26,897 nt of DNA from assembly GCA_003133205.1 (NCBI GenBank), contig PKWK01000210.1, positions 1,232-28,128 on the forward strand, given 5' to 3'. Below, in pieces: positions 6,810 to 24,391 of the stretch. The notes beneath the pieces were generated by a model. That model was not told the DNA's origin and did no database searches. It saw only the letters and a program-made list of their open reading frames with translations. The translations under genes and the position numbers were made by a program. How positions within the stretch are numbered: position 1 is the stretch's first letter; every line of letters begins with the position of its first letter. Source of the DNA: Granulicella sp. Its GTDB lineage: Bacteria > Acidobacteriota > Terriglobia > Terriglobales > Acidobacteriaceae.

Positions 6810-6849
6810 GCAGCAGACGACCGCGTCCTTTCAGTTTTAATCATTAACT

Positions 6850-8591: not shown

Positions 8592-11243
8592 ATGAATATG
8601 CGTAGAGCAGTGCTGTTTTTCTGGATTGCATCGACGAGCGCGTTGGCGGCTCCGCACATCCATCTCTCAGCGACGCCGAGTGCCAGGGAGATATTCGCTG
8701 GGCAGCGTCTGGAGCAGGCCGTGGCGGCGTTGCCCGGGGATGAGCAGATACTGCTTGCGACCCGGCTCGATCCCCTGCTGAAGCCGTATGACAAGCAGAT
8801 TCCGGATTTCTGGCCGGACGCGAAGGAGGCGTTTCTTCTGCGGCGACTGGGCAATACGATCATCGTTGCGGGATACGATCCATCGGGCGTTTTGTATGGC
8901 GCGATGGAACTGGCGGATCGTATCCGCGCTGCTCATGCGTTGCCCGCGGCGCTTGACTATGAGGATCATCCGCAACTGAAGTTGCGTGGTGCGGCGATCG
9001 GCCTGCAGAAGCCTGAGATCACTTACGAGGGGGCGGAGTACGACTATCGCTATACGCCTGAAGAGTTCCCGTGGTTCTACGACAAGGCTGCGTGGACGAA
9101 GTATCTCGATCAGCTTGCGACGCAACGAATCAACACTCTGTATCTGTGGAACGGCCACCCATTCACTTCCCTGCTGAAGCTGCCGAAGTATCCTGAGGCG
9201 CAGGAACTGCCGACGGCGCAGCTCGATCGGAATATCGAGATGTTCCGCTGGCTCACGGCTGAGGCGGACAAGCGCGGCATATGGGTGTTGCAGGGTTTCT
9301 ACAATATTCATCTGTCGCACACATTTGCGAAGGCGCATGGTGTGCCCTTTCATCTCTCTGCGCCGACGCCGCTGTCGAGCGAGTACACGCGCTACTGCAT
9401 CTCGGAGTTCATACGGCAGTATCCGAACGTCGGGCTGTTTATGACGCTGGGCGAGGCAATGGGGCCGCACTATGGGCCGGAATGGCTCACGAAGACCATC
9501 ATCCCAGGTGTGCGCGATGGGCTGGCCGAGCAGGCGAAGGCGTTGGGTTATCCAGTGCCCGAGCCTCCGATTGTGGTGCGCGCGCATGCAACCGACATCG
9601 CTGACGTGATGGCTGCGGCCAAGCCGCTGTATAGCAATATCGACACGATGTTCAAGTGGAACGGCGAGTCGCTGACCTGGACGAATGTGCGCGGGCCGGT
9701 GAAGCAGGAGTTCGAAATGCTGGTGGCTGGATCGAACGTTCAGATCTCGAACATCCACCTGCTTTCAAACCTCGAGCCCTTTCGGTGGGGCGATCCCGAC
9801 TTTATTCGGCAGACCATTTTGAACTTCGTGCGCATCGGAATCGGCGGCGCGCATGTGTATCCGCTGCGCTACTGGGACTGGCCATACACCGCCGACAATA
9901 CGACGCCGCGATTGATGCAGACGGATCGCGACTGGATCTGGTATCAGGCCTGGGCGCGGTATGCGTGGAACCCGGAGCGCGACCCTGCGAAAGAGCATGC
10001 GTACTGGGTGGGCCAGTTTGCAGATCGATTCGGAACTGCAGAGGCAGGAGAACATCTGCTCGCTGCGTATGAGTTGTCCGGTATCTGCGCGCCGAAGCTG
10101 CTGCCTCGCGTTGGCATCACCGAGGGCAACCGGGAGGTGCTCTCGCTCGGAATGACAATGCCGCAACTGATCGACGCAGCGCGGTTCAACCCAGCGCAAA
10201 CGCTGTGGACCGGAGACGCTCCCGACGGTGAGCGGCTGGATGAATACGTTGCGAATGAGATCAACCACAAGGCTCATCATGGCGAAACTCCGCTGGGCGT
10301 GGCTGCGGAGGTTGCGGCGAGTTCCGCGAAGGCGGTAACGGAGGCTGAGGCAGCCGCGCCGGGAATCCGCGCGAGTGCTCGGCCGGAGTATGAGCGGATC
10401 GTCAACGACATGCGCGCGATCGCTGCGTTGATGGCGTACTACAACCACAAGACGCAGGCGGCGGCGCTGGTGATGCGGTTCGGGTACGACCATGATCAGG
10501 CCGATCTGGCGATGGCCGAGCCATTGCTGGCGGCGAGCGTTGAAGACTTCGCGCGGCTGACGCAATTGACTGAGGCGACGTATCGCAATGCGGCGGGGAT
10601 GCAGACCTCGCAACGACAGATACCGGTGCGGGGTGGTCCGACGACGAACCACTGGCGCGATTTGCTGCCGGTGTATCGCGCAGAGTTGGCGACGTTCCAG
10701 CGGAGGCTCAAGACGCTGGGAGGTGCGCAACCCGCGAGTGCGGAGATGACCCCGACGCGGCTTCCGCAGGTGGCGTTTACGCTTGCTCCGGGCGCGGGCG
10801 AGACCTTTTCTGTGCGTTCGGGCGAGAAACTGTACGCCGATGCGATGACGCCCATCGTAACTGTCGCGCCAGAGTTGGATGGGCTGACGGGCATTCGCGT
10901 GTCGGCGCAGCAGGAGACGCCGATTCACTTCACGCTTGCGAAGCCGGCGCAGATTCTTGTGGGCTTCTTCAAGTCCGATTCAAAGAAGGCGATGAACGTT
11001 TCGCCCGCGACGGAGCAGTGGAATATTCTGCTGCCAAATGCGCTCACGACGGCGAAGGGTCTTCCGGTTACGGTGTGGACGAAGCCGCTGCCGGCAGGAG
11101 TGAACGATCTCGACCTTGGTAAAGGGGCGTATGTCGTGGTGGGATTTATTCCCGAAGACGCGCATGTGACGCCACACGTCAACTTCAGCACGACAGGTGA
11201 GAATGGTGAGCCGCCTAATCTCGATTGGCTATTTGAGGATTAG
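8592..11243 (+). CDS. Large secreted GH67/GH115/GH20-like protein, candidate alpha-glucuronidase-type glycosidase
   Basis: An 883-residue protein with a signal peptide (MRRAVLFFWIASTSALAAPH; the ATG at 8598 could be used instead of 8592). Residues about 20-120 resemble the alpha/beta domain that precedes the barrel in GH20, GH67, GH84 and GH115, ending IIVAGYDPSGVLYGAMEL. A TIM barrel follows (about 130-470; RINTLYLWNGHPF, NVGLFMTLGEAMG, GGAHVYPLRYWDW), then a helical region (about 470-710) and a C-terminal beta domain ending at 883. I cannot assign a CAZy family; E287 or so in FMTLGEAMG is a candidate catalytic acid. Co-transcribed with the DUF5060 gene (six-base gap), it probably acts on the same polymer. 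Glucuronic and galacturonic acids in RG-II are reasonable substrates. Confidence 0.7.
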   Translation: MNMRRAVLFFWIASTSALAAPHIHLSATPSAREIFAGQRLEQAVAALPGDEQILLATRLDPLLKPYDKQIPDFWPDAKEAFLLRRLGNTIIVAGYDPSGVLYGAMELADRIRAAHALPAALDYEDHPQLKLRGAAIGLQKPEITYEGAEYDYRYTPEEFPWFYDKAAWTKYLDQLATQRINTLYLWNGHPFTSLLKLPKYPEAQELPTAQLDRNIEMFRWLTAEADKRGIWVLQGFYNIHLSHTFAKAHGVPFHLSAPTPLSSEYTRYCISEFIRQYPNVGLFMTLGEAMGPHYGPEWLTKTIIPGVRDGLAEQAKALGYPVPEPPIVVRAHATDIADVMAAAKPLYSNIDTMFKWNGESLTWTNVRGPVKQEFEMLVAGSNVQISNIHLLSNLEPFRWGDPDFIRQTILNFVRIGIGGAHVYPLRYWDWPYTADNTTPRLMQTDRDWIWYQAWARYAWNPERDPAKEHAYWVGQFADRFGTAEAGEHLLAAYELSGICAPKLLPRVGITEGNREVLSLGMTMPQLIDAARFNPAQTLWTGDAPDGERLDEYVANEINHKAHHGETPLGVAAEVAASSAKAVTEAEAAAPGIRASARPEYERIVNDMRAIAALMAYYNHKTQAAALVMRFGYDHDQADLAMAEPLLAASVEDFARLTQLTEATYRNAAGMQTSQRQIPVRGGPTTNHWRDLLPVYRAELATFQRRLKTLGGAQPASAEMTPTRLPQVAFTLAPGAGETFSVRSGEKLYADAMTPIVTVAPELDGLTGIRVSAQQETPIHFTLAKPAQILVGFFKSDSKKAMNVSPATEQWNILLPNALTTAKGLPVTVWTKPLPAGVNDLDLGKGAYVVVGFIPEDAHVTPHVNFSTTGENGEPPNLDWLFED

Positions 11244-11293: not shown

Positions 11294-12178
11294 ATGCCTC
11301 AACTCGATCAGCCCTCTAGCGCCGTCGCGGCTTCACCATCACCCACTGTCCATGTCCGACTTCTAGACAACCCAATCTGGAACGCACTGAACACAAAGCA
11401 CAGCGCGCTGGCCGTCGGGGATGGGCTGGCAAAGCGCTACCCCGCAGAGATTGGTCCGTTGAGCGGCGTCGTCGAGCAATCCGCCGCGGCCTATGAGGCT
11501 TTGCGAACGCTGACAGGTCCGAATGGTGTAGCGGCCCTGTTTCTCGAGTCACCACCGGAAATGCGGGAGGGTTGGTCGCTGGTGCGCGGAGGCCTGATGA
11601 GCCAGATGATCTGGTCGGGCGGGAGCGGACTGAGAACCGCGCCGCTGGATGGACCGGCTACGCTGCGGTCCCTGACGCGGGCGGATGTCCCCGCAATGCT
11701 GGAGTTGGCTGAGTTGACCGAGCCCGGACCATTTGGCCGACGCACCAGCGAGTTGGGTGAGTTCTTCGGCATCTTCGAAGCCGGCCGGCTGATGGCGATG
11801 GCCGGCCAACGGCTTCATCTTCCCGGGTTCGCCGAGGTAAGCGCCGTGTGCACACATCCCGATGCACGCGGTCGCGGCTATGCGCGCGCTTTGATGTCCG
11901 AGGTGATGGCAGGCATTCTGCGGAGGGGCGAAACGCCCTTCCTGCATGTGTTCGCTGACAATTACCCCGCGATTCGGGTGTATGAAGGTTTGGGCTTTAT
12001 CCGCAGACGCAGCTTGCACCTGGCTGTGCTGAAGTCGATTGTGAGGTTGGTTAGTGGTCGATCGATGGCGGGGTCTGCGGTGGGTCGTGGCGGCTCAGCA
12101 GTTTCTCTGCCTCGGCATCTGTTACATGGAAGAAGCTGCCGTGCTTGGCGTACTCGGGGAAATGCATCTTGTCGTTGA
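11294..12178 (+). CDS. GNAT-family N-acetyltransferase (FR47-like)
   Basis: A 294-residue protein. Residues about 22-120 match the N-terminal part of FR47-like acetyltransferases (LLDNPIWNALNTKHSALAVG). The catalytic GNAT fold covers about 125-250: the acetyl-CoA loop is ARGRGYARAL, after VCTHPD, and the later FADNYPAIRVYEGLGFI is the usual last helix-strand. It transfers acetyl from acetyl-CoA to an amine; the substrate is unknown. The last ~43 residues (from LVSGRSM) lie antisense to the 3' end of the GH43-like gene and look like frame overrun rather than family sequence. No good ribosome site precedes the ATG. It has no obvious link to sugar metabolism. Confidence 0.82.
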   Translation: MPQLDQPSSAVAASPSPTVHVRLLDNPIWNALNTKHSALAVGDGLAKRYPAEIGPLSGVVEQSAAAYEALRTLTGPNGVAALFLESPPEMREGWSLVRGGLMSQMIWSGGSGLRTAPLDGPATLRSLTRADVPAMLELAELTEPGPFGRRTSELGEFFGIFEAGRLMAMAGQRLHLPGFAEVSAVCTHPDARGRGYARALMSEVMAGILRRGETPFLHVFADNYPAIRVYEGLGFIRRRSLHLAVLKSIVRLVSGRSMAGSAVGRGGSAVSLPRHLLHGRSCRAWRTRGNASCR

Positions 12179-13016
12179 CGCTGCTCCAGTGGACCCAGTC
12201 GCTGGTTTCGACGCCCTCGTAGCGGGCGCGGGGAGCGCGATAGTGATCGTAGTACACGATCCACTTATCGCCGACGTGAATAACTGAAGGGCCTTCGGAC
12301 CAACTTTCGGTGATGGGGCCTGAGAGCGGAGCCCACGGGCCTTCGACGGTTGGGCCGGACGTCCAACGGACCTGGTAGCGCAGCGGATCGATGGACTGAT
12401 CCTTGACGACGAAGACCCAGTCATCCTTGCCCTCGAAGTGTCGGCGGAGCATGGTCGCGTCGATGACGACGAAGCCGGGATCGAAGAAGAGAGCTGGCTT
12501 TGAGAAGGTTACGAAGTCTTTGGTGCGTGAGGCCCAGATGCGATTGCCGTCGTTATTATCCGAAAAAGCGGAGGACGAGATGAGCAGCCACTCTTTCGCT
12601 TTGTCGTTCCAGTAGGTCTCGGGTGCCCACACGTTGCGGGCGGTGGGGAAATCTTTCATGATGGGCACTTCGGTCTGGTGCGACCACGTCATCAGGTCGG
12701 AGGACGAGGCGGTGCCGAGCGTGCTTCCCTTCCAAGCCCACGTCCACACCGCTCGAAAGCCGTCGCCCGAAGGGTTGCGTGTAATGAAGACGTCGCGTGT
12801 GATCTCATCCTTGACCTCGGGCTTGATCCACGGCTGTCCGTCGTTGAGCGGCGTGAAGGTGTAGCCGTCGCGGCTGAGGGCGAAGTAGATGCCCTGGGTT
12901 CCGGGCTCCTTGAAGTAGGCGAAGACTGTGGCGCCTTTCTCGGGAGCGCTGGCGGCCTGTGCCCAGGCGGATGCGCTGAATACGAGCATGACAAGACAGC
13001 AGAGTAGGCGCTTCAT
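12051..13016 (-). CDS. GH43-like five-bladed beta-propeller glycosidase
   Basis: A 321-residue secreted protein starting MKRLLCCLVMLVFSASAWAQ (signal peptide, cleavage after AWAQ). The propeller shows the usual GH43 acids: D75 in TRDVFITR (candidate base), D186 in FVVIDATM (pKa modulator) and E241 in WSEGPSV (candidate acid). WAPETYW and WIVYYDHYR are also typical. The frame extends 48 codons upstream inside the previous gene; I start at 13016 because the signal peptide begins there and the ATG overlaps the upstream stop (ATGA), implying translational coupling. GH43 enzymes are mostly arabinofuranosidases, xylosidases or galactosidases; arabinose in pectin side chains is the natural guess. 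It is the last gene of the long minus-strand operon, and its 3' end overlaps the convergent GNAT gene by 128 bases. Confidence 0.85.
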   Translation of the reverse strand: MKRLLCCLVMLVFSASAWAQAASAPEKGATVFAYFKEPGTQGIYFALSRDGYTFTPLNDGQPWIKPEVKDEITRDVFITRNPSGDGFRAVWTWAWKGSTLGTASSSDLMTWSHQTEVPIMKDFPTARNVWAPETYWNDKAKEWLLISSSAFSDNNDGNRIWASRTKDFVTFSKPALFFDPGFVVIDATMLRRHFEGKDDWVFVVKDQSIDPLRYQVRWTSGPTVEGPWAPLSGPITESWSEGPSVIHVGDKWIVYYDHYRAPRARYEGVETSDWVHWSSVNDKMHFPEYAKHGSFFHVTDAEAEKLLSRHDPPQTPPSIDH

Positions 13017-15430
13017 TCGGCGTCCGGCGTCAGCGGCTTCTCGTCCGCGGATTTCTTGCGGGTTGGAGGATCGGGCACGTCGCTGGATAGAAGTGTCTTG
13101 CCGCGCCATTTGGAGGTTGCTGTGCGGTTGCCGGTGGCGTCGAAGTTGTCCCAGGTCCATGTGCCGTCTTCTGCGTAGTGCTTGTGCCAGACAGGCGTCC
13201 CGTCTTCGCGGAGGTAGCGCTCTTCGCCGATCTTGCGGCCGGCGCGGAAGTCAATCGACCACATGAGTTTTCCATTGGGGTAGAAGAAGGTCTCGGGGCC
13301 ATCGAGCAGCACGCGTCCGTCTGCGGCATGGCCTGCGCTCCAAGTGACCATGACTTTATCGCCGCCCGGATAATGTTCCGTGGAGTGTTGCATATCCCGA
13401 ACGGAATCGGAGGCGGTGATGTCTGCACCAGCGTTCTTATCCAGCACCCATGCTTCGTTCAGCTCGATTTCGTAGTCGGGCTTGTTCTTCGAGGTGACGA
13501 CGTGGACGAGGCCATCGGGGCTCTGAGTCGCGGTTGTGTAACCGACGGTGAGGATGTCTGGCGCCAGATGCTTCATCGTCCAGGTCACTCCATCGTCGTC
13601 GCTGAGGGCGACGTACGCGCCGTCCTTGTGGATATGCTTTTCGTTCTTCGGGTTGTAGTCGGCGACGAAGAAGAGACGCCCGCTTGCGAGACGGATGATG
13701 CTGGGCCGCTCGCCGCTGGCAAGCGGATCAAAGGGGGTCTTCGATTTTTTCCACGTCTTGCCGCCGTCCGTGCTGCGGGCCAGCGGCATGCGGCCTTCGA
13801 TGTTGGAGTTCTTGCCGCCGAAGCCGAGCAGGTCTCCGTTCTTCGCGATGACAATGGTGGTGTGGCGTCCCGCGGTACGGCCACCGGTGTCGTACCAGGT
13901 CTTGCCTTCGTCCTTCGTTGCCCAGACCACGCTGATCGATCCGTTGCCGTCGTCATCCTTACCGGTCGAATCGGTGGGGATGTAGATGGTGCCGTCCTTC
14001 GCGCGAACGATGCTGTTGATGGGCTGTGAGACGTAGCGGCCGATCGGCTTCTTAAAATAGGGGAACGTGACCTGCGACCACGTGACACCGTTGTCGGTCG
14101 AGGTGGCGTAGCAGAATGGGCCTGCACCGATCAGTCGAGGAAAGCCCCAGAACATCCAGATCTTGCCCGGGTGCGCTTTGTCGTTCCAGATGACGGGGGC
14201 TGCGAGCGCGGCGTCGGCGAAGTGCGGAAAGACCTCGGGTGTGTCCCAGTCTTCGGCTCCGGCGCGGCGTCGCATGATGAGGATGGTCTGGTCGGGATCG
14301 TCCTCGTTGATGGGGGCGTTGTAGTAGGCAGCGAGGACGTCGCCGTTAGGCAGTTGCTGAATCGCAGAGTTGTGATAGTTGACGCCGAGTCCTGGTGCGA
14401 GGCCAAGCTTCCAACCTACGCCGGGCATGCTCTTGCCCTGGAGACTGGGGAAGATTTCGTGCACGTGATACCAGGGCTTCGCGGGATCTGGGGCGCCGAC
14501 CGACGCGCTGCCGAGAAGGCTCTGCTGCTTGACCGCGGTCTCAAAAAAGAACTTCTGCCCGGGGCCCGGTTTTGTATCGACAGGCGGCGCCTGTACCACG
14601 CGGAAGCCGATATTGCCATCCTTTGAGGCATACGCGGGAGCCATGCTGGCGCGATTGGCAGCACGCGCGAAGTACGGCGCGGTCGCGGGGACGTTGAGAT
14701 CCGGTGTGGTCTTCGTCGCTGTGTGGCGGAAGTCGAGTCCGGCGCCGCGCACGACTTTTGTGTAGCCGGCAACGGCGCCGACTGGATCGACCTGTTCGCC
14801 GGATTGATATGGGGCGTACCAATCCATCGTCCATTCGGGTCGGCCAACGCCCATGTTCTTTACGCCGAATGCATTCGCGGCGTCGGGTTTCAGCATCTGG
14901 TTCGAGTTGCCGTAGATGTCCTTGCCGCCGGCGCGCGCCACATACTCCCACTCGGCTTCAGTGGGCAGACGCCAGGGCTTGCCTGTCTTCTTCGAGAGCC
15001 ACGCGCAGTACGCCGTGGCTTGCTTCCAACTCACTCCGGCGGCGTAGGCAGGTGTCGCTTCGCCAGCTATGTAGGTTGGGTCGAAGAGTCGATACTCCGC
15101 GGGGCTGACCTCGGTCACGCTGATGTTGAAACCCTTGGAGATCCGTACTGAATGCGCCGGGAGTTCGTCGAAATCGCCATGCTCCGGGCGCGTCGACATG
15201 ACGCCGAAGCCTTTGGTGACGGAGTCGGGGAGCTCTGCGGCATCGGCTCCCATGACGAAGCTTCCCGGCGGAATCGCAACGATTGCAGGTACGCCATCCT
15301 TCGCCAGTGGGGGCGCGACGCCAGCCATCGTATCCGGGTGGCCATCCTTCTGTGCGATGGCGATGCCCATAGCCAGTAGCACCAACGCGCTCGTCGCCAA
15401 CAGCCTCAGTTTTGAACTGCTCGGTGTCAT
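13013..15430 (-). CDS. Secreted fusion: FGE-like domain + BNR sialidase-like propeller + YwqK/MORN-like C-terminus
   Basis: An 805-residue protein. A signal peptide (LLATSALVLLAMGIAIAQ) precedes an FGE-sulfatase/SUMF1-fold domain at about 47-281 (IPPGSFVMGAD, TGKPWRLPTEAEWEYVARA, GFRVVQ). A BNR/sialidase-type propeller covers about 290-680 with four Asp boxes: STDNGVTW, TKDEGKTW, STDGGKTW, SDDDGVTW. The end (about 705-780; FFYPNGKLMWSIDF, YLREDGTPVWHKHY) resembles YwqK/MORN-like repeats. The FGE-like part lacks the cysteine pair of true formylglycine-generating enzymes, and no sulfatase gene is in the window, so it is probably a binding module. AAGGAG lies seven to eight bases before the ATG. 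Sialidase-like propellers cleave 2-keto-3-deoxy sugars; in a pectin locus the likely targets are Dha or Kdo of RG-II rather than sialic acid. Confidence 0.82.
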   Translation of the reverse strand: MTPSSSKLRLLATSALVLLAMGIAIAQKDGHPDTMAGVAPPLAKDGVPAIVAIPPGSFVMGADAAELPDSVTKGFGVMSTRPEHGDFDELPAHSVRISKGFNISVTEVSPAEYRLFDPTYIAGEATPAYAAGVSWKQATAYCAWLSKKTGKPWRLPTEAEWEYVARAGGKDIYGNSNQMLKPDAANAFGVKNMGVGRPEWTMDWYAPYQSGEQVDPVGAVAGYTKVVRGAGLDFRHTATKTTPDLNVPATAPYFARAANRASMAPAYASKDGNIGFRVVQAPPVDTKPGPGQKFFFETAVKQQSLLGSASVGAPDPAKPWYHVHEIFPSLQGKSMPGVGWKLGLAPGLGVNYHNSAIQQLPNGDVLAAYYNAPINEDDPDQTILIMRRRAGAEDWDTPEVFPHFADAALAAPVIWNDKAHPGKIWMFWGFPRLIGAGPFCYATSTDNGVTWSQVTFPYFKKPIGRYVSQPINSIVRAKDGTIYIPTDSTGKDDDGNGSISVVWATKDEGKTWYDTGGRTAGRHTTIVIAKNGDLLGFGGKNSNIEGRMPLARSTDGGKTWKKSKTPFDPLASGERPSIIRLASGRLFFVADYNPKNEKHIHKDGAYVALSDDDGVTWTMKHLAPDILTVGYTTATQSPDGLVHVVTSKNKPDYEIELNEAWVLDKNAGADITASDSVRDMQHSTEHYPGGDKVMVTWSAGHAADGRVLLDGPETFFYPNGKLMWSIDFRAGRKIGEERYLREDGTPVWHKHYAEDGTWTWDNFDATGNRTATSKWRGKTLLSSDVPDPPTRKKSADEKPLTPDAE

Positions 15431-15456
15431 TGCATTTCTCCTTCAGGGCAAGCCAA

Positions 15457-17148
15457 CTACTTCAGTTCGTATTCCATTGGGCCCAGATCTTTGTGCGACA
15501 CGACCTGCTTGCCATCCACCAGCAGCATCATCCCCTTGCCTCTGCCGTAGCGCTTGCCGGTTGAATCCCACAGGACTGTTAGCAGGTGGCCGTGATACGG
15601 CAGCGCGTCGATGGCGAAGTAGGTCCATTGGCCACGAGGCAATAGCGGCTGCAGCACGATGCGATTGTCGGCGCGCGGGCGCAGGCCAATGAGCCCGGTG
15701 ATGAGAGGATCGGAAAAACCGGAGTGGTTGTAATAGTTGCCGCGCCCTACTTGCTTGTCCTTCGCGATCAACATATCCTTCGCTATCCATTCATCGGTGT
15801 CGGCATCGAGGTCTTCGTCGATCCAGTCGACGACGTGTCCATTCTTTAGGGTCTGGTGCTGGGCGAGGACATAGCGATCGAAGAGCTTGTAGTAATCCGC
15901 GTGATTCATTACGAACGTGCTTGGTTTGTTCTCATAGGAGGCCAGCGCGAGCAGCGTTTGGGTCATGGCGAAGGGCCATTCAGGACCGTTCCAGGTGCAT
16001 TGATCGGAACTCTTGAAGCGGAAACGCGGGCTGCGCCGCTCCGCTGTCGTCGCTCCGTACTTGCCATCAAAGCCTTGCGGATCGAAGAGTTGCTTCCATG
16101 CGACGGCGTGAGAGGCGGCGGGAATGTCGAACATCCAGGGGATATAGCCGATCTGCTCGCGAACGCCTGCTAATCGCAGAGTCATTCCCGGGTCGATGAA
16201 CTTTTTCTGCTTGCGAATTCCGGAATCCGCAGCAGGCGACATCACTTCATAGAACTGATCCTTCGGATCCCACAGGCGCGTCTCGATCAGCGTGTACAGC
16301 GCGTCGGCCTTGCGATTGAAGTCGTCCGCGGAGGCATTGTCTCCTGCGGCTGCCGACATCTCCGCGATTGCGCGCGCGTCGCCGTACATGTAGCTGTTTA
16401 GTGTGGGCCGATAACCGTCTCCGCTGATGCTCTTCTCCATTGCGTCGCGGGTGTCAATCGACCAGAAGAAGCCGTTTGAATCCTGCTGTGTATCTTCCCA
16501 GGCTTTGTAGTTGATCTTCAACGCAGGCAGGAGGGACGCACCCAGCGCGCGGTCGCCGTTCGCGAGGGTGAGGTCGCGGACCGTTGCCGCCATGGCATCG
16601 CTGTACTTGTGCGAATCGACACCAGGCGAGAACCAGTAACGCGCGTCGTCCTCGGCTACGGCCGGATCTCGCAGCCAGCGGGCTTCTGCGATGTGAAAGG
16701 GCGCGGCATCGGGTAATGCGCCGTAGCTGCCGTCGGCCATCTCCGGCTTGGGCAGCCACTCCGTAATGACGTAGCCGTGCGGAGTCTTGACTAGGTGCTT
16801 CTTCCACGCGTACCAGCGGAAGTAATACATCTCTTCGAACTGCTTGTCGGATGCGTCGAACCAAGGTATCTCGTGTTGCATCCACGCCCAGGAATCTTCG
16901 CTGCCTTCGTCCTCGTAGAGCTTGCCTGTGGCTTCGCGCTCCTGTTGGTGAAACGTATCGACGTAGTGGCCATAGTCGGCTGGCTTCAGAACCGAGGCAC
17001 CCGATCCACTCTGCGGGCTTGTGCTCGACTGGGCGGGCAGGGCCATAACGAACAACAACTGCGCCACCATCCAGAGCGCAATCAGCGTTCGAACCCATCC
17101 GCGCTCGTCAGATATATTCAATCTCCTTCTCCCTAGTGATCCAGCCAC
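15457..17148 (-). CDS. (alpha/alpha)6-barrel glycoside hydrolase, MGH1-like, possibly GH142-related
   Basis: A 563-residue protein with an N-terminal hydrophobic segment (TLIALWMVAQLLFVMALPAQ), probably a signal peptide. The body reads as an (alpha/alpha)6 barrel: YWFSPGVDSHKYSDAM, FIDPGMTLRLAG, NGPEWPFAMTQTLLAL, SGFSDPLITGLIGL; a short beta domain follows. It resembles MGH1-like/GH63-type enzymes; GH142 (beta-L-arabinofuranosidase of RG-II side chain D) is in the same fold group, a relation I suggest but cannot confirm. The start is unsure: the GTG at 17148 overlaps the aldolase stop by one base (TAGTG), but a strong AAGGAG lies inside the frame 23-28 bases later, just before a TTG. It lies 26 bases upstream of the sialidase-like gene. 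Confidence 0.75.
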   Translation of the reverse strand: MAGSLGRRRLNISDERGWVRTLIALWMVAQLLFVMALPAQSSTSPQSGSGASVLKPADYGHYVDTFHQQEREATGKLYEDEGSEDSWAWMQHEIPWFDASDKQFEEMYYFRWYAWKKHLVKTPHGYVITEWLPKPEMADGSYGALPDAAPFHIAEARWLRDPAVAEDDARYWFSPGVDSHKYSDAMAATVRDLTLANGDRALGASLLPALKINYKAWEDTQQDSNGFFWSIDTRDAMEKSISGDGYRPTLNSYMYGDARAIAEMSAAAGDNASADDFNRKADALYTLIETRLWDPKDQFYEVMSPAADSGIRKQKKFIDPGMTLRLAGVREQIGYIPWMFDIPAASHAVAWKQLFDPQGFDGKYGATTAERRSPRFRFKSSDQCTWNGPEWPFAMTQTLLALASYENKPSTFVMNHADYYKLFDRYVLAQHQTLKNGHVVDWIDEDLDADTDEWIAKDMLIAKDKQVGRGNYYNHSGFSDPLITGLIGLRPRADNRIVLQPLLPRGQWTYFAIDALPYHGHLLTVLWDSTGKRYGRGKGMMLLVDGKQVVSHKDLGPMEYELK

Positions 17149-18005
17149 TATACCGCCGGAGTTGCAGGTGCATCCATCGTGTCGCGAACGGAATCACTTC
17201 CATTCGAATCACGAAGCTCGACGCCCAGCCGCACAGGAGGCAGAAGAGCTCTAGCCTCTTCCAGAGCCAGCGCCGCGCCGCGCTTGAGGCATGCGATGTC
17301 GTTGGTGCAGAACAGAAGATCGATCTTTTGATCGAGCCAGAACTTGAAGTCCGTTGGGCCACACGCCGAAGCGATGCATTTGTGATTTGCGCGCGCCGCC
17401 TGAACGATGCGCGCTGCCGCCTCGCGGACCAGTGGATGCAAAGTTTGGCCGGGATAGCCGAGACTCGCCGCGAGATCCGCCGGCCCGATGAAGAGATCGA
17501 CCCCAGCCACCGCGGCAAGTTGATCCAGATTCTCCATCGCCTTTGTAGTTTCAACCTGGGCCATCAGGCACAACTCTCGGTTAAGACTCTGCTGTGTCTC
17601 GGTTACTGAGTTCAACACGCCATAGTGGACGGCGCGCGAGACACTGAAGTAGCCGCGACCGCCAGCCGGCGCGAATCGCCCGTATTCGAGCATTTCATCC
17701 ATCTGCGACGTCTCATCGACCATGGCGACATCGATGATGTCGGGGCCGCATTCAGCAGCCTTGAGGATGTTTTCGCGGCGTGAGTCCGGGATGCGGATCA
17801 TGGTGAGCATGCCGGACCCGGACGCCATGCGGCAGAGGTCTGCCGCTTCAGCGAAGGTGATTGGAGCGTGCTCCATCTCGATCCAGATTGCCTGGTAGCC
17901 GAGATGTGCGGCCACCTCAAGGAAAACGGGATCATAGAAGTAAAGAGCAGCTCCCAGCAAAGTTCTGCCACCGTTCAGTTCAACTGCTTTGCGCAATCGA
18001 TTCAT
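17148..18005 (-). CDS. HpcH/HpaI-family class II pyruvate aldolase
   Basis: A 285-residue cytoplasmic protein covering the whole family fold. It cleaves 2-keto-4-hydroxy (often 3-deoxy) acids into pyruvate and an aldehyde. Residues matching E. coli HpaI are present: H46 in EMEHAP (H45), R71 in MIRIPD (R70), E152 in QVETT (E149) and D177 in IGPADLAASLG (D175); the glycine-rich PAGGRGY loop is also conserved. AGGAGG five bases before the ATG is an ideal ribosome site. The start overlaps the symporter 3' end by 26 bases, and the C-terminal ~25 residues (VELRDSNGS onward) are extra to the family. In E. coli, HpaI acts on a C7 diacid and RhmA on 2-keto-3-deoxyrhamnonate. Neighbouring kinase and PdxA genes suggest a C7 diacid here. 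Confidence 0.92.
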   Translation of the reverse strand: MNRLRKAVELNGGRTLLGAALYFYDPVFLEVAAHLGYQAIWIEMEHAPITFAEAADLCRMASGSGMLTMIRIPDSRRENILKAAECGPDIIDVAMVDETSQMDEMLEYGRFAPAGGRGYFSVSRAVHYGVLNSVTETQQSLNRELCLMAQVETTKAMENLDQLAAVAGVDLFIGPADLAASLGYPGQTLHPLVREAAARIVQAARANHKCIASACGPTDFKFWLDQKIDLLFCTNDIACLKRGAALALEEARALLPPVRLGVELRDSNGSDSVRDTMDAPATPAV

Positions 18006-19551
18006 CTCTGCCTCCTAAAGCCTTCTTGCACACAGATTGCCGGTTCATCGCCAGCCAATCCCATAACGTAGGGCCGGCCACGCGATCAGCCGGCACCACA
18101 ATGCTTGCAATACAGCCAACGACAAACATGAGCGTGTTGCCCACGGCGCCGATCGTGAACTCGTGCCATGGATAGTTCCACGAGTGAAGGTTCCAGTTGT
18201 GGCCGCCATTCATCGTCAACGTCGCCCATGCAGTGAAGATGAGGTTGGCGGCAATGGCGATCAGAGCCGCGGCGCGTCCTGCCCGGCGAATGAGGAACGC
18301 AAGAAGAAATAGCCCGGCTAGCCCACCGGCGACGACAGCCGTTGCCAGGTAGTAGAGCGACAATGCGGAGCCCTGGCTGGCAGAAAGACGAATGGCAACT
18401 CCGATGGCCAGCAGTCCGCAGACGGCCACAGATACCTTGCCAATGCGCAATCGCTGCCGGTCGGTGCGGTGCGGTGCGAAGTGACCATAGAAGTCTTCGA
18501 CGATGATGACGCCCAGGCAGTTGAGATCCGAAGCTAGCATCGACATCGCCGCGCCGAAGAGCGCCGCTAAAAAGAGGCCGGCGACTCCGGGTGGCATCTG
18601 AGTGACCATGAAGTGTGGAAAGACCTGGTCGGGCTTGGTGATGGTCGCTGGCAGGTGCTCGCCGGTGACGCGATAGAACGCCCACAACAGGCTGCCGATA
18701 AACATGAACGCAGTCCACACCGGCAGGCAGAGTGCTGCTCCCATGCCGATGCCGCGAAGGGCCGCGCGATCCGTCTTCGCCGCAAGGTAGCGCTGCACGA
18801 CGGTCTGGTCTGCCGTGTACTTTTGCAGATAGAAGAAGAGTCCGTAGATTGCCATCGTCCAGAATGTCTGCGCGTGCAGATTGAAGCTCATGCTGCCCAG
18901 GCTTGTTTTGTGGCTGACGGCGATCAGATGCATGATGTCGCCGGTATGGACGTGAGGTGAGAACAGCAGCAGCCCAATGGAGACAGCAACGCCGGTCCAA
19001 AGAACGAAACCCTGTAGGACATCGGTCCAGATGACTGCCTCAAGTCCGCCGATGAGCGTGTAGGAAATTGTGATCAGACCAAGAATTACGATGACGTGCG
19101 TAAGGCTCCAACCCGTGATACCGCCGACTGAGAGCGCGAGCAGATAGAAGACGAAGCCCATCTTCGAGAAGTGCCCCATGGCGAAGGCGAACGAGGAGTA
19201 CATCCTAACTCCGGGGCCAAAGCGCTTGCCAAAGTACTCGTACACACTCATCGCGACGACGTGCCGGAAGAACGGCACTACGACGAAGCCGATCGCCGCG
19301 ATGACCAGCACAAACATGATGCCCGGCACGAGCAAGGACCAGTCGCCCGCGTAGGCCGCGCCTGGATAGGCGATGAAGGTGACGCTGGTGATGATCGTCG
19401 CCAACAACGACATTCCGATCGCCCACCCGGGGATAGTCCGATTCGCCAGGAAATACTCTTTAGTCGAAGTTTGACGACGTGACACATGCACACCGACACC
19501 GACGAGCACCGCCATGTAGAGACCAACGACGAGGATGTCGAGCGTGCGCAT
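17980..19551 (-). CDS. Sodium:solute symporter (SSS family)
   Basis: A 523-residue inner-membrane protein with about 13 hydrophobic segments. The start MRTLDILVVGLYMAVLVGVG and the following STKEYFLANRTIPGWAIGMS are the typical first helix and loop of the SSS family (sugars, sialic acid, amino acids, with Na+). The conserved segment YTLIGGLEAVIWTDVLQGFV confirms it. AGGAGA lies nine bases before the ATG, and the PdxA stop is one base upstream. Placed between PdxA and the aldolase it should bring in the compound those enzymes process. SSS members include the sialic acid transporter of Salmonella (SiaT/STM1128 group), so a 2-keto-3-deoxy sugar acid is an acceptable cargo type. Substrate remains inference. 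Confidence 0.93.
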   Translation of the reverse strand: MRTLDILVVGLYMAVLVGVGVHVSRRQTSTKEYFLANRTIPGWAIGMSLLATIITSVTFIAYPGAAYAGDWSLLVPGIMFVLVIAAIGFVVVPFFRHVVAMSVYEYFGKRFGPGVRMYSSFAFAMGHFSKMGFVFYLLALSVGGITGWSLTHVIVILGLITISYTLIGGLEAVIWTDVLQGFVLWTGVAVSIGLLLFSPHVHTGDIMHLIAVSHKTSLGSMSFNLHAQTFWTMAIYGLFFYLQKYTADQTVVQRYLAAKTDRAALRGIGMGAALCLPVWTAFMFIGSLLWAFYRVTGEHLPATITKPDQVFPHFMVTQMPPGVAGLFLAALFGAAMSMLASDLNCLGVIIVEDFYGHFAPHRTDRQRLRIGKVSVAVCGLLAIGVAIRLSASQGSALSLYYLATAVVAGGLAGLFLLAFLIRRAGRAAALIAIAANLIFTAWATLTMNGGHNWNLHSWNYPWHEFTIGAVGNTLMFVVGCIASIVVPADRVAGPTLWDWLAMNRQSVCKKALGGRDESIAQSS

Positions 19552-19552
19552 G

Positions 19553-20551
19553 CTAGCGGGTCTCCTGCGTGATCGCGGCGCGTCCCGCGGTCGAGGAATT
19601 CAACCTGCCGATCGCCATCTTCGCCGCCATGCGCATGGCCGCCTTCATGTTGCGGCAGTCGGCACGATTCTGGCCGGCAATATCAAATGCGGTGCCATGG
19701 TCGACCGACGTGCGAATGATGGGGATGCCCAGGGAGATGTTTACCGTCTCCTCGAAGTCGATGAGCTTCATCGGGATGTGTCCCTGATCGTGATACATCG
19801 CGACGATCAGGTCGAATTCTTTGCGTAGGCCGCGAATGAAGATCGCGTCTGGCGAGTGCGGGCCGGTGCAGTCAAAGCCAAGCTGTCGCGCTTCCTCCAC
19901 CGCCGGCGCGATAACTTCGGAATCCTGCCGGCCGAAGAGGTTGTGCTCGCCAGCATGCGGATTCAGGCCGCAGACGCCGATTCGCGGGGGGCGTCCGAGC
20001 ATCAGCTGCATGGCTTCGGCTCCCAGTTCGATGGTACGGACGATGCGATTTTGCTCGAGCTTGCATGCCTGCTCAAGCGCAATGTGGGTGGAGACGTGCA
20101 CGGTGGCTAGCTTCTCGCTTGCCAGCAGCATTCTCGACTCGGTGGCGCCGCAGAGTTGTGCGATGTACTCGGTGTGGCCCGAAAAGCTTTGCCCCGACAT
20201 TGTGACCGCTTCCTTGTTCAACGGCGCGGTGACCATCGCATCCGCTTCGCCCGCGAGACACATCTCGGTGGCGCGGCGAACGTAGGCAATGGCGGCCAGG
20301 CCGTATTCGGCGGAAAGCGCGCCGAAGCGGATGGGTTGGGTGGAATTGAGGGTGCCGGTCGCTACGAAGCGGATGCGTGGGTCCACTGTTTCGCGATAGC
20401 CGGGCGCGACAGCGTCGAGCGCGACGTTGTCGCCGATGACGATCCATTCGGCCAGGTCGACGAGGTCGCGATCGGCGAGGGCCTTCAGGGCGATCTCGGC
20501 GCCGACGCCGGCGGAATCGCCGATAGTCACCGCAATTCTAGGCAGGTTCAC
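19553..20551 (-). CDS. PdxA-family 4-phosphate dehydrogenase, probably PdxA2 (D-threonate/D-erythronate type)
   Basis: A 332-residue protein, the normal length for PdxA. It starts at a GTG: VNLPRIAVTIGDSAGVGAE is the family N-terminus and GGAGG sits four bases before it; an upstream extension would run far into the kinase gene. The three metal-binding histidines are present: H126 in FSGHTEYIA, H156 in VHVSTHIALE and H254 in AMYHDQGH. TAPLNKEA is conserved. PdxA of vitamin B6 synthesis oxidises 4-phosphohydroxy-L-threonine with decarboxylation; PdxA2 does the same with D-threonate 4-phosphate to give dihydroxyacetone phosphate and CO2. The kinase immediately upstream (14-base overlap) and no other B6 genes point to PdxA2. 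It shares an operon with the symporter. Confidence 0.9.
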   Translation of the reverse strand: MNLPRIAVTIGDSAGVGAEIALKALADRDLVDLAEWIVIGDNVALDAVAPGYRETVDPRIRFVATGTLNSTQPIRFGALSAEYGLAAIAYVRRATEMCLAGEADAMVTAPLNKEAVTMSGQSFSGHTEYIAQLCGATESRMLLASEKLATVHVSTHIALEQACKLEQNRIVRTIELGAEAMQLMLGRPPRIGVCGLNPHAGEHNLFGRQDSEVIAPAVEEARQLGFDCTGPHSPDAIFIRGLRKEFDLIVAMYHDQGHIPMKLIDFEETVNISLGIPIIRTSVDHGTAFDIAGQNRADCRNMKAAMRMAAKMAIGRLNSSTAGRAAITQETR

Positions 20552-21713
20552 TGGACCTCCGTTCGCAAAACTCAAATGCATGGACGAGTGCCTCGCGCTC
20601 GCCAAAGCCACCGGATTTTGTAATGACCGCGCAGCCGTCTGCCATGCCGCCTTCGACAAATCCCCATGGAATGCCGCGCGCAATCTCGCCCGCTAGCATG
20701 ATGCTGGACGCTCCCAGTGCGTGCAGAACGAAAGACGCAGTGTCGCCGCCGGTAAGGATCAAGGCAGAGACTGGCCCCGCGGTAAACGCCGCGACTACAT
20801 CTTGCTCCGACGCCGCAGCACACGGGATGCGGTAGATCGCACGGTCCATTCCACCGGATTCCCGCTGTAGATGCGCGACCTGGAAGCTTGTAACAGCGTG
20901 GGGTGTACCGACGAAGAGGAGGGTGCGGCCATGGCGCTGCGTGGTCTGCGATGCTGCCTTTGGAATGGACGTTGCGAGCTTGCCGGCAAGAGCATGGGCC
21001 AGCCCGGCCGAACCTGCCCAGACGAGCGGTTGCTGTACTTGTAGTCCGGCCGCTGCGAGTCGTTCGAGGTCGTTTTGCGAAGTCGAATCGCATAGCAGGA
21101 CGCGAGTGCCCTTTGTTACAGCTCGCACAATTCCCTGCTCCAGGTGCTGCTCGGAGCCGGCGGGCAATACTTCGACGCCGTTCGCGTCCTCGTGCGGGAA
21201 CTGGCCGCGCAGAGGAATCGCCGCGTCCTGACCGCTCCAATCGCGGACAGTGAGGACGCCGGATTCGACTGTGCGTCCGGCCTCTGGAAACGCGGGCGCG
21301 ACCAGGGCAAGCGCAGCGCCCGAGCAGCGAAGAACTGCACTAATCTCCACGCCAAAGTTCCCGCGAGCGGCGGAGTCTATTTTCTTGAAGAGGAGAGTTC
21401 CCTCGAGAATGGGTTCGAGCGCGGTTACGCGATTTGCGACGCGCTCGCTGGCTTGTTCCGGCACCAGGTCTCGCGTCTCGGTTGTGAAGGCCCACACTTC
21501 CTGCTTGCCCCGAGCTTCTGACTGACACAGAGTTTTCACGTCAAAGCTGGACTCATCGAGCAACACGCGGACCGGGCGTCCGCAGGTGAGAAACGCGACG
21601 CCGCTGTCGCACGCGCCCGTCAGATCATCCGCGATGATGACAATTTTGTCTACGCTCATTCGATGCACACCGGGCTGCGTGTGCAACACCATGGTATTTG
21701 AGGAGGGCGTCAT
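20538..21713 (-). CDS. DUF1537 four-carbon acid-sugar kinase
   Basis: A 391-residue protein. The N-terminal half is the sugar-binding domain (KIVIIADDLTGACDSGVAF at about 23-41; KKIDSAARGN), and the C-terminal half is the nucleotide-binding domain (ALILTGGDTASFVLHALG; CAVITKSGGFGEREAL near the end). This family phosphorylates C4 acids such as D-threonate, L-threonate and erythronate, and also 3-oxo-isoapionate, at the terminal hydroxyl. I start at 21713 because its ATG overlaps the rhamnosidase stop (ATGA) and GGAGG precedes it; M19 (MSVDKIV) is an alternative but has no ribosome site. It is followed at once by PdxA, a pair known as DtnK-PdxA2 for D-threonate. Confidence 0.92.
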   Translation of the reverse strand: MTPSSNTMVLHTQPGVHRMSVDKIVIIADDLTGACDSGVAFLTCGRPVRVLLDESSFDVKTLCQSEARGKQEVWAFTTETRDLVPEQASERVANRVTALEPILEGTLLFKKIDSAARGNFGVEISAVLRCSGAALALVAPAFPEAGRTVESGVLTVRDWSGQDAAIPLRGQFPHEDANGVEVLPAGSEQHLEQGIVRAVTKGTRVLLCDSTSQNDLERLAAAGLQVQQPLVWAGSAGLAHALAGKLATSIPKAASQTTQRHGRTLLFVGTPHAVTSFQVAHLQRESGGMDRAIYRIPCAAASEQDVVAAFTAGPVSALILTGGDTASFVLHALGASSIMLAGEIARGIPWGFVEGGMADGCAVITKSGGFGEREALVHAFEFCERRSSEPA

Positions 21714-24277
21714 CGGTTGCTCCCTCCGCTGTTGGTGAAGACATAATCGCCAGTGGCGCGCAAGACTACGATGGAGCGCGTTCCACCTTCTGCAACGGAG
21801 GCCGGCACTGGCCGCCCGTTCTCGAGAACGCTTCCCTGCTCTGGCGCGAATGGAAGGCTGATCGTCGCAATGGTATCGGGCGGCAGCGTGATGCGGACCG
21901 CACTGAGCTCGACGCTGACGCGGATCGGACCGCGCGGCGTGGGTTCGGCTCCGCGAGCCCAACGCAACCCGGCGCGGTCAGGGCGTATGCTGACCTCGCG
22001 AAACCCTCCGGCGGTCGGCTGGATTCCGAGTAATTGCTCCATCAACCATGCGGTGGGGCCGCTGGACCAGCCGTGGGCGAGGCTGACGTAATAGCCCTTC
22101 TTGCCGTCGGCCTCCAGAGAAGCGTGGAAGTCCTGGCCCCCATCCCAGCGGGGATCGTACGCCTCCCAGAAACTTGTCGCGCCATCCGCCAACATCCCGC
22201 CCCAATACTGGCGCATCCACCGGAGCGCCTCGGGCCTGTGGTCAAGGCGCGCCATCGCATCGAGAAGATAGAACCCGTAGTACGGCGTGATGACGTTCTG
22301 TGGGGCCTCGAAGTTGGTCATCAGCCCGGTGGGCGCTCCAACCCGCGAGAGCACGCGTTCCCAGATGGCCCGCTGCTCCTCCGGGTTCGCTGCGCCCGAC
22401 ATCACCGCCATTGCGTTCGTCTGCCAGCGCATGCCGAACGTGTTCGTCGCTGGGTCCAGCAGACGGCCCCGCGCCGCGAGTTGCATGCCTTCGGCCTTTG
22501 CTGCGTAGAATTCAGCGTTTGCCGCGTCACCCATCTCGCGCAAGAGATACGCGGCTTCCTGATAGGCCAGGTAGAACTCAAGGTGGGTGGCTGCGCGTGC
22601 CTCAGGGGTGTCCGCGCTGAAGCCTTCGGACCAATCCACGAAGACCTTGTGCTTCTCAGGATTCGTGAACAAGCCGCTTGCATCCAACTCGCGATCCATC
22701 ACATGCAGTAGTTCAAGCATCTGCGGATGCACGCTCTTCAGGTATTCGAGATCGCCGCTATGGCGATAGAAGTCGGCCTGCCCGGTGATCCAGAACGCGG
22801 AGTAGCCGGCGATGGTGTTGACGTCGCGTTGAACCGGCGAATCGCCGATGAGCGCAGTCAAGGTGGACTCCATCAACGGGCGCTCGGCAAAGACGCTGCT
22901 GATCACCCGGCCGCTTACGTCGAGGTCTCCCATCCACCGGCCTCGATCACGCTTCACTCCGTCCCAGATGCCCTCCTGCATGCAGAGATGCGCGGTATAA
23001 GCACCTGTCTCCCAGATGCGGTTCAGCAGCGGATCGGAGGATTCGAACGAGCCTTTGTACTCGACCGGATAGGCGATTCCCTGCGCATCGATCTTGCTCC
23101 AGGTCGAGGGCGCGTCGGCGGGGAAGCTGAGCCGCACATAGCGAAAGGCGCTCTTCGGGCCAAAGACCTCGCCGTGCGGCGGCACCGTCACCTGCCGTAC
23201 GCCGAGGTATGGATGGCTAAGCGCCTCCGCGGAGGACTCGCCGTAGCTGGTGTCTACGGTGACAGCACGGTCCGAGGAGGAGACGAGGTGGATGCGTCCG
23301 CTGATCTCTTTTCCGAAGTCGAAAGTCAACGCAAACGAGGCGCCGGCCTGGTTGCGAACGACTTTTACTTCGGCGCCAGCCGATGCAACGAGGACGCCAT
23401 CGGATTGCTGGGCATTCTGTCCGGTTACGTCGCGAATCGAGACCGGTGCTATGAAAAAAGTCCGCATAGCGGGACTAATACCTGCGTATCCTGGCCACGC
23501 ATAGAGGCCGGCATCGGCGTTCCACTGAAGAAAATCGCGCTTGCTGCCCAGAACTCCCAACGTCTGAACCGCAGGCCAGTTTGAGTCATCGAAGGATGCC
23601 GAGGACCAGTTCGGCGGGGCGTCGAGCGAGCTTCGCCACGAGGCGTCGGAGATCAGCAGCGGAGGCGCGTCGACCGCGATGCTGCGCGAGACAATCTTCA
23701 CCGCCAGCACCTCGCCGTACGTCACTTGATTGATGACCGGGCTAGCTCCAGTGTGAAGTGAACTATGGCCGCGAACCTCCTGAATTGCAATGACATTCTC
23801 GCCCGCTTGCAGGGCCTTTGCGACTGCGGCAGTCATCACATGAAAGCCTTTTCCGCCGTCCTGATCCGCGAACTGCAGGACTTTCGTGCCATTCAGCGTG
23901 ACTGTGGCGGCGCGTGGCCCGGCAAGGTAGAGCGTTGCCTCCGAGGGAACAGCGCTGACTGTGAAGTGGGCGCGAAAGTAATGGGGCGCGATCTTATCGT
24001 CCTGGCCGCGGACCGTCGCCTGAAGAGCCGGTCTGAGCGCGGCCGCATCGTCCTTCGTCCAGATAAACTGCTCGTGAAGCGTTGTAGATTCAACGAGATG
24101 GAGTGCAGCCGGATCGTGGGCTGGATCGAGATATCCCGACGCCTGCGAGCCATTGCGAGCTTGGCCATTGGCTGAGATTGCAGCGGCGAGGATCAGGAAG
24201 CAGCACGAAACCGACCTCAAGGCTAGCCCATAAGCCTGGGTTGACCGATTTGCTCTATTTTCCGCGTGGTTCCGCAT
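21710..24277 (-). CDS. GH78-like alpha-L-rhamnosidase
   Basis: An 855-residue secreted protein with signal peptide (SVSCCFLILAAAISANGQ). An N-terminal lectin-like region of jelly-roll type covers about 40-400. The six-hairpin catalytic barrel (about 400-750) contains WDGVKRDRGRWMGDL (about 438-452; typical GH78 general-acid region), SFWEAYDPRWDGG (E705 a candidate base) and SLAHGWSSGPTAWL (near 735), a strong GH78 signature. A beta-sandwich closes the protein. The frame extends 164 codons upstream, overlapping the divergent GH28 gene; the start at 24277 gives a proper signal peptide, with only a weak AAGG before it. It hydrolyses terminal alpha-L-rhamnose from pectin or other glycans. It is the first gene of the eight-gene operon, with the kinase start overlapping its stop. 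Confidence 0.87.
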   Translation of the reverse strand: MRNHAENRANRSTQAYGLALRSVSCCFLILAAAISANGQARNGSQASGYLDPAHDPAALHLVESTTLHEQFIWTKDDAAALRPALQATVRGQDDKIAPHYFRAHFTVSAVPSEATLYLAGPRAATVTLNGTKVLQFADQDGGKGFHVMTAAVAKALQAGENVIAIQEVRGHSSLHTGASPVINQVTYGEVLAVKIVSRSIAVDAPPLLISDASWRSSLDAPPNWSSASFDDSNWPAVQTLGVLGSKRDFLQWNADAGLYAWPGYAGISPAMRTFFIAPVSIRDVTGQNAQQSDGVLVASAGAEVKVVRNQAGASFALTFDFGKEISGRIHLVSSSDRAVTVDTSYGESSAEALSHPYLGVRQVTVPPHGEVFGPKSAFRYVRLSFPADAPSTWSKIDAQGIAYPVEYKGSFESSDPLLNRIWETGAYTAHLCMQEGIWDGVKRDRGRWMGDLDVSGRVISSVFAERPLMESTLTALIGDSPVQRDVNTIAGYSAFWITGQADFYRHSGDLEYLKSVHPQMLELLHVMDRELDASGLFTNPEKHKVFVDWSEGFSADTPEARAATHLEFYLAYQEAAYLLREMGDAANAEFYAAKAEGMQLAARGRLLDPATNTFGMRWQTNAMAVMSGAANPEEQRAIWERVLSRVGAPTGLMTNFEAPQNVITPYYGFYLLDAMARLDHRPEALRWMRQYWGGMLADGATSFWEAYDPRWDGGQDFHASLEADGKKGYYVSLAHGWSSGPTAWLMEQLLGIQPTAGGFREVSIRPDRAGLRWARGAEPTPRGPIRVSVELSAVRITLPPDTIATISLPFAPEQGSVLENGRPVPASVAEGGTRSIVVLRATGDYVFTNSGGSNR

Positions 24278-24391
24278 CCGCACCTTGGCCCCGATATCCT
24301 CGCCGGAAGAAGATTGACTTCTGTTCTCGACATGGCACAGTATATGCACACAATTGAAAGTTAGCGAACTGTTTTGAAGAGGCGACGACTG
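24278..24391. promoter_or_regulatory. Divergent promoter region between rhamnosidase and polygalacturonase genes
   Basis: About 114 bases must hold promoters in both directions. On the minus strand TATACT (24344-24339, five of six) could be the -10 of the long operon, but no convincing -35 is at the right spacing. On the plus strand TTGACT (24314-24319) and TATATG (24341-24346) are 21 bases apart, too far for a standard promoter. AGTTNNNNAACT at 24360-24371 is a short symmetric motif. I did not see a copy of either palindrome found near the IclR gene. Confidence 0.35.

Follow-up and report, generated by a model that had tools for sequence, protein, structure and literature searches.

A candidate operon for the release and catabolism of the rhamnogalacturonan II sugar Dha in Acidobacteria

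What could unite a DUF1537 kinase, a PdxA, a sodium:solute symporter (SSS), an HpaI-type aldolase and several glycosidases in a single operon? The question is raised by a 26,897-nucleotide stretch of DNA from the soil acidobacterium Granulicella sp. (hereafter the window), in which eight minus-strand genes, joined by overlaps or short gaps, occupy positions 24277 to 12051. A first-pass annotation had read this span as one minus-strand operon containing these genes together with a sialidase-like enzyme and an (alpha/alpha)6 glycosidase, and the open reading frame (ORF) and Pfam evidence bears out both the operon and the genes named. It had further proposed that the operon serves the use of 3-deoxy-D-lyxo-heptulosaric acid (Dha), a rare seven-carbon sugar acid of the plant cell-wall pectin rhamnogalacturonan II (RG-II). 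That proposal is supported here by an iron-dependent alcohol dehydrogenase (Fe-ADH) in relatives, by matches to glycoside hydrolase (GH) families 142 and 138, by co-occurrence and by stereochemical fit. It is likely that the operon frees Dha from RG-II and degrades it to pyruvate, dihydroxyacetone phosphate (DHAP) and CO2 via D-threonate. We regard this route as a well-supported candidate for a new pathway built from known enzyme families; the enzyme activities and substrates given below are predictions from gene family, linkage and the evidence just named.

Outside the cytoplasm, a GH142-type enzyme would take off the L-arabinofuranose cap, after which a sialidase-fold protein would release Dha from the RG-II backbone and the SSS symporter would take it into the cell. 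The HpaI-type aldolase would then split Dha into pyruvate and D-threuronate, a C4 aldehyde acid that an Fe-ADH would reduce to D-threonate. Phosphorylation by the DUF1537 kinase would yield 4-phospho-D-threonate, which PdxA would oxidise and decarboxylate to DHAP and CO2. With the cofactors of the two enzymes as generally known, PdxA would give back the NADH that the Fe-ADH had consumed, making the route redox-neutral at a cost of one ATP. The stereochemistry fits this order of steps. In Fischer projection, Dha carries its hydroxyl groups left at C4, left at C5 and right at C6, and a cut between C3 and C4 gives pyruvate plus CHO-C5-C6-COOH; reduction of this C4 aldehyde acid and rotation by 180 degrees place C2 left and C3 right, which is D-threonate. 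The Fischer reasoning of the first-pass annotation, that D-lyxo Dha leads to D-threonate, is thus correct.

The arrangement of the genes is more than chance, because the same order recurs in other genomes. We compared 46 aldolase copies at 44 loci (26 loci in Acidobacteria from a contig scan, 17 from other genomes, and the window); all 44 were chosen because they hold the aldolase, and most of the relatives are draft metagenome-assembled genomes (MAGs), in which absences are weak evidence. In 37 of the 46 copies the symporter gene immediately precedes the aldolase, kinase and PdxA genes lie within ~6 kb in 31, and PdxA alone is nearby in one (at a contig end). Within the same distance, GH142 accompanies 18 copies, a sialidase-like gene with a formylglycine-generating-enzyme (FGE) domain accompanies 21, and another sialidase-like (BNR_2-type) gene accompanies six more, leaving 19 copies, some at contig ends, with neither sialidase-like type. 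Homologous operons thus do not consistently lack the sialidase-like gene, a lack that the first-pass annotation had named as counting against its proposal. In the aldolase tree, the window falls into a clade of 23 rows (SH-aLRT 99) that holds all 18 GH142-linked copies, and a second clade comprises 10 rows (support 92), every one with kinase, PdxA and Fe-ADH; Fe-ADH is present in both clades. The remainder consists of the pair L023 (kinase, PdxA and Fe-ADH all present) and L087, and of 11 distant, weakly grouped rows. Genome G583 is self-contained, with a sialidase-like gene, kinase, PdxA, SSS, aldolase and Fe-ADH on one strand and an IclR gene and a TonB-type gene divergent. Contig L102 of genome G403 carries three aldolase copies, several FGE-sialidase matches, a kinase and a PdxA.

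One enzyme of the route is missing from the window. A search found no Fe-ADH there (best chance match E 0.008), and no other reductase was noticed among the window's Pfam results, in agreement with the gap that the first-pass annotation had pointed out. It had suggested a search for a linked dehydrogenase of short-chain or hydroxyisobutyrate type; what relatives carry is Fe-ADH, which lies directly downstream of the aldolase in 17 of the 46 copies (one partial, at a contig end), in several relatives between aldolase and GH142, or after the aldolase where GH142 is absent. Aldo-keto reductases (AKRs) directly adjoin the aldolase in four copies; an AKR as the general reductase of the window's clade was rejected, as these genes adjoin only the distant aldolases L090, L092, L093 and L094. 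The two genomes closest to the window, G001 and G744, encode their Fe-ADH away from the aldolase, and both proteins fall inside the clade of aldolase-linked Fe-ADHs, as judged without row L037, whose translation was in a wrong frame. That the window's own genome holds this reductase is something we infer from these relatives. At its own locus in G001 (L047), the Fe-ADH gene lies near apparent transketolase halves, a sugar kinase, ABC transporter parts and a fucose-isomerase-like gene (identified by eye), as well as GH78-like and apiosidase-like matches. Within the window's clade, Fe-ADH is missing at L003 against L011, and at L006 and L008 against L005, L013 and L016, and this absence in several branches reads as repeated loss or relocation.

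Co-occurrence, which the first-pass annotation had also proposed to survey, was examined in an even sample of 398 genomes from the family to which Bryocella elongata (G025) belongs. Of these, 35 hold the aldolase (E 1e-60), 18 the Fe-ADH family (E 1e-120) and 34 the GH142-type enzyme (E 1e-100). All 18 genomes with Fe-ADH hold the aldolase (Fisher 6.8e-22, kinship ignored), and the two genes are adjacent by coordinates in 16 of them; in G744 the Fe-ADH is far from the aldolase, and in G011 it lies on another contig than the aldolase, beside which there is a partial Fe-ADH. GH142 and aldolase are common to 25 genomes (Fisher 2.6e-24, kinship likewise ignored). A protein-database search with the Fe-ADH profile scored 8000 proteins, 6514 of them at E 1e-100, and so shows the family in the wide sense to be large. 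In a phylum-wide sample, 10 of 396 genomes had the aldolase (E 1e-50); a plasmid collection gave no aldolase match at E 1e-30, and the core is recorded here from Acidobacteriota only.

The two Fe-ADH proteins that were scanned (L018 and L012) carry PF00465 and PF25137 above cut-off. After their best NCBIfam model, considered below, the next models are lactaldehyde reductase, choline dehydrogenase, 4-hydroxybutyrate dehydrogenase and sulfoacetaldehyde reductase, all below cut-off. The scores against the lactaldehyde reductase and 4-hydroxybutyrate dehydrogenase models (203-229 bits, below the cut-offs) suggest aldehyde-reducing enzymes of the expected kind. They could also be taken to mean that aldolase and Fe-ADH process a rhamnose- or fucose-derived 2-keto-3-deoxy acid to pyruvate and lactaldehyde, then propanediol, with D-threonate use independent of them. 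The Fe-ADH scores 213-229 bits against lactaldehyde reductase TIGR02638 (cut-off 523), the aldolase scores 97 bits against the L-rhamnonate aldolase model (cut-off 441), and GH78 and GH29 genes adjoin the core, the GH78 gene being in line with this explanation. This explanation would leave the constant order of kinase, PdxA, SSS, aldolase and Fe-ADH unexplained and the sialidase-like genes without a role, and no rhamnonate dehydratase was noticed by eye among part of the ORFs at the loci, no dedicated search having been made; we consider it quite improbable.

The aldolase proposed to cleave Dha (17148-18005; solved matches 3qz6 and 2vws) belongs to the HpcH/HpaI family, its PF03328 domain (9.3e-25) scoring 87.6 bits against a curated cut-off of 25. 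Against four equivalog models (HpaI, RhmA and GarL twice), it reaches 90-103 bits, where the cut-offs are 369-441, which makes it, by sequence, a separate subfamily of HpaI-type enzymes. The first-pass annotation had credited it with all key residues. The His, the Arg and two metal-ligand positions are indeed retained, but Glu43 stands where three solved aldolases have Asp, two places before Glu-His, and all 24 aligned relatives share this Glu. We take this position to be Asp42 by HpaI numbering, and the roles of the His, Arg and metal-ligand residues are likewise presumed.

The two enzymes predicted to act on D-threonate and its 4-phosphate follow one another in the operon. PdxA2 converts D-threonate 4-phosphate to DHAP. 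The window's kinase (20538-21713, start 21713 or 21659), a predicted D-threonate kinase, carries both DUF1537 domains of four-carbon acid sugar kinases above cut-off (PF07005, 3e-33; PF17042, 3.2e-15), as expected of DtnK; against the D-threonate kinase model NF047819 it scores 182 bits (cut-off 450), which is more than against the other model listed. In the accessible part of PMC10971088, both DtnK and DenK are DUF1537 kinases. PdxA, a predicted 4-phospho-D-threonate dehydrogenase (19553-20581, start 20581 or 20551; PF04166, 9.8e-94), scores 330 bits against TIGR00557 (cut-off 290) and 265 bits against the PdxA2 model PRK03371 (cut-off 583). Its PDB matches include 4jqp (3.6e-74) and, among the three best, the D-threonate 4-phosphate dehydrogenase 6e85 (7.4e-68). 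PdxA matches were present in 10 of the 13 genomes examined, and the operon gene is no second copy, since it is the sole PdxA in seven of them (G744, G003, G004, G014, G017, G020 and G022). Copy number alone does not exclude vitamin B6 synthesis by this enzyme; its position in the operon and the draft relatives without any PdxA speak for a catabolic role. In G002, the aldolase locus lacks kinase and PdxA and a DUF1537-PdxA pair lies elsewhere in the genome; in G018, PdxA is elsewhere, and the 16 kb examined around it gave no kinase match. A DUF1537 search matched in four of four genomes and in three of 14 controls and is not informative on Dha. The symporter gene (17980-19551), a predicted sugar-acid importer, has PF00474 (2.8e-42) and TIGR00813 above cut-off.

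The link to RG-II comes from the glycosidases. Residues 44-553 of the protein downstream of the aldolase (15457-17148) match residues 611-1095 of 5mqr (E 1.6e-105, phmmer), which we take to be BT1020, the bimodular GH143-GH142 enzyme of Bacteroides thetaiotaomicron, the matched C-terminal part presumably being GH142. The (alpha/alpha)6 glycosidase of the first-pass annotation can thus be named more closely as a beta-L-arabinofuranosidase of GH142 type, whose predicted role is to remove the cap from Dha in chain D of RG-II. Divergent from the operon, a plus-strand gene (8592-11243) for an 883-amino-acid protein without a Pfam family matches the solved structure 6hzf (BPa0997; E 2.5e-173), which we take to be GH138. 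These two matches and the co-occurrence of GH142 with the aldolase support the earlier suggestion that RG-II is the source of the sugar. According to an excerpt of PMC6811678, the GH143 enzyme has two modules, and its two sites, a beta-L-arabinofuranosidase and a Dha hydrolase, work on chain D; the part of PMC7922503 that was available reports strong co-occurrence of GH137, GH138, GH139, GH142 and GH143, possibly through joint action on RG-II.

The candidate for Dha release, encoded at 13013-15430, has a six-bladed sialidase (BNR) fold, and an FGE-type (FGE-sulfatase) domain is fused in front of the propeller. An invariant Tyr631 falls at Tyr370 of 1w8o by alignment offset only, and the arginine-triad and Glu positions of GH33 appear changed, judged by motif. 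Neither this protein nor the GH43-like one next to it (searched as 12051-13160) matched 5mqr at E 0.1, profiles gave nothing at E 1 and 0.1, and 5mqr is not among the best 50 structure matches listed for the sialidase-fold protein, which excludes nothing. The GH43-like protein (12051-13016) is of five-bladed-propeller type, with a hit to the alpha-arabinofuranosidase model NF052546 (2.5e-17, 63 bits, cut-off 500) and weak fold matches to GH32, GH130, GH62 and GH43 (predicted model, mean pLDDT 65); it was rejected as a GH143 Dha hydrolase for want of a sequence match to 5mqr. A sialidase-fold enzyme might instead free 3-deoxy-D-manno-octulosonic acid (Kdo) or another ulosonic acid, with the kinase-PdxA pair acting on something else, and several sialidase-like types do lie near the core. 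Retro-aldol cleavage of Kdo, however, yields arabinose, by established chemistry, which would leave a four-carbon acid kinase and PdxA without use; we give this substrate very little credence, less than the rhamnose or fucose explanation. According to the available part of PMC12282258, Dha and Kdo, which is the second ulosonic acid of RG-II, occur in its disaccharide chains C and D, the latter ending in beta-1,5-arabinofuranose.

Several observations weigh against the Dha route. Kinase and aldolase score under every equivalog cut-off seen, and among NCBIfam models the Fe-ADH scores highest against the regulatory protein ErcA (258-265 bits, cut-off 550), which does not fix its substrate. Neither Fe-ADH nor AKR adjoins the aldolase in 25 of the 46 copies, the window included and some at contig ends, and 13 of the first 26 genomes, mostly draft MAGs, have no Fe-ADH at E 1e-120. 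Kinase and PdxA were both not found near 14 of the 46 copies (the L008 contig being too short to tell). Three drafts (G006, G008 and G009) hold aldolase, GH142 and FGE-sialidase, yet neither a PdxA nor, at E 1e-120, an Fe-ADH of this family turned up in their genomes, which leaves the route of their C4 product unexplained. The association with GH142 is incomplete: 10 of the 35 aldolase genomes lack it, nine of the 34 GH142 genomes lack the aldolase, and G583, a single 5.1-Mb contig with the full core, has none at E 1e-100; the Fisher values, moreover, disregard kinship. The protein encoded at 13013-15430 is only a candidate Dha hydrolase. Finally, the distant subfamily aldolases L090, L092 and L093 lie within ~10 kb of galactarate-dehydratase genes.

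This last point opens another explanation, in which a C6 aldarate, 5-keto-4-deoxyglucarate, is the substrate and the aldolase, like GarL, splits it into pyruvate and tartronate semialdehyde, and kinase and PdxA form a separate, neighbouring D-threonate pathway. The galactarate dehydratase of L092 is an equivalog (877 bits, cut-off 731), those of L090 and L093 were found by tblastn, and all three aldolases lie directly beside an AKR, possibly a tartronate semialdehyde reductase. A glucarate-dehydratase-like gene is present as well in L090 and L092, and in L088 a galactarate-dehydratase-like gene (395 bits, below cut-off) comes directly after DtnK-PdxA-SSS-HpaI. Against this, L090, L092 and L093 form a branch of their own (SH-aLRT 100) outside the window's 23-row clade, tblastn searches with the dehydratases of L092 and L088 gave no match close to the aldolase in the window or the GH142-linked loci, and the order of kinase, PdxA, symporter, aldolase and Fe-ADH is constant across two clades. 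We consider a C6 substrate for the window's enzyme unlikely and retain Dha; since the distant aldolases stand beside galactarate-dehydratase genes, the subfamily probably acts on 2-keto-3-deoxy diacids of differing length.

The RG-II signal extends beyond 12051-24277 through the GH138-type gene and, next to it on the same plus strand, an apiosidase-like gene with DUF5060 and DUF5605 (6981-8585; PF13204, 3.4e-13; PF16586, 1.3e-23; PF18310, 4e-13). In L006, genes upstream of the RG-II operon (1656-5077) encode an OiaK-like 3-oxo-isoapionate kinase (463 bits, cut-off 700), a major facilitator superfamily transporter and an Asp/Glu racemase-like protein, so that this neighbourhood may serve the use of apiose, also a sugar of RG-II. 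The window's operon begins with a GH78-like six-hairpin glycosidase (21710-24277; PF17389, 1.4e-17; PF17390, 9.9e-9; ATG at 24277, ORF open to 24769). Beyond it lie a plus-strand GH28 polygalacturonase-like gene in the pectin flank (24374-25675; PF00295, 2.4e-56) and a minus-strand GH29 alpha-L-fucosidase-like gene, open at the window end (25689-26897; PF01120, 1.9e-78). On the other side, the minus strand encodes an IclR-family regulator (5900-6868; PF01614, 1.2e-38; PF09339, 4.5e-12) and a TonB-dependent-receptor-like outer-membrane protein, possibly for outer-membrane uptake (1858-5550; PF25183, 1.3e-167; PF13620, 5e-21), and a DDE transposase (599-1735; PF13808, PF01609) lies near the window edge. 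IclR homologues occur within ~10 kb of the aldolase in L001, L012, L021, L088, L091, L095 and L097. At 12051-12178, the ends of the minus-strand GH43-like gene and of a GNAT ORF on the plus strand overlap. An Rfam scan at gathering thresholds and a tRNA scan of the window returned nothing.

On balance we think it probable, if a little less so than the route itself, that this is the first Dha catabolic pathway and a last step of RG-II recycling, comprising a dedicated Dha aldolase, an Fe-ADH acting as D-threuronate reductase (moved or replaced in some lineages), DtnK, PdxA and a new Dha-releasing sialidase-fold family. The first-pass annotation knew of no described Dha catabolic pathway, and the open-licence literature, as far as it could be consulted, yielded neither such a pathway nor a fate of Dha after release, most subscription papers lying outside it. 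RG-II is highly conserved across all plants, and in plants Dha occurs only in RG-II, according to the accessible part of PMC12168206. If correct, the four-enzyme route would close the gap on the fate of Dha after its release from RG-II, offer an enzymatic means of supplying and assaying Dha, and give a role to an aldolase subfamily now named after HpaI or RhmA in sources.

How does the system compare with those already described? D-threonate catabolism by DtnK and PdxA2 was reportedly described by Zhang and colleagues in 2016. The window shares with it the DUF1537 kinase, PdxA and DHAP as product, but here aldolase, reductase, symporter and RG-II glycosidases precede them, and D-threonate would be an intermediate rather than the food. 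The 2016 work on D-threonate by Zhang et al. is cited in the part of PMC10971088 that was available. As in BT1020 (5mqr), a GH142-type module is combined with a propeller protein for the Dha step, but in separate genes, and the sialidase-fold and GH43-like proteins lack a sequence match to 5mqr. The aldolase has PF03328 and the base and metal-ligand residues in common with HpaI, GarL and RhmA, and differs in forming its own subfamily, with Glu for Asp and scores below the cut-offs of four equivalog models. The galactarate/glucarate route, which uses GarL and tartronate semialdehyde reductase, likewise has an aldolase acting on a 2-keto-3-deoxy diacid followed by reduction of the aldehyde acid, and distant members of the window's aldolase subfamily sit in such operons; the route proposed here differs in that its substrate would be C7 rather than C6 and its C4 product would be phosphorylated and decarboxylated.

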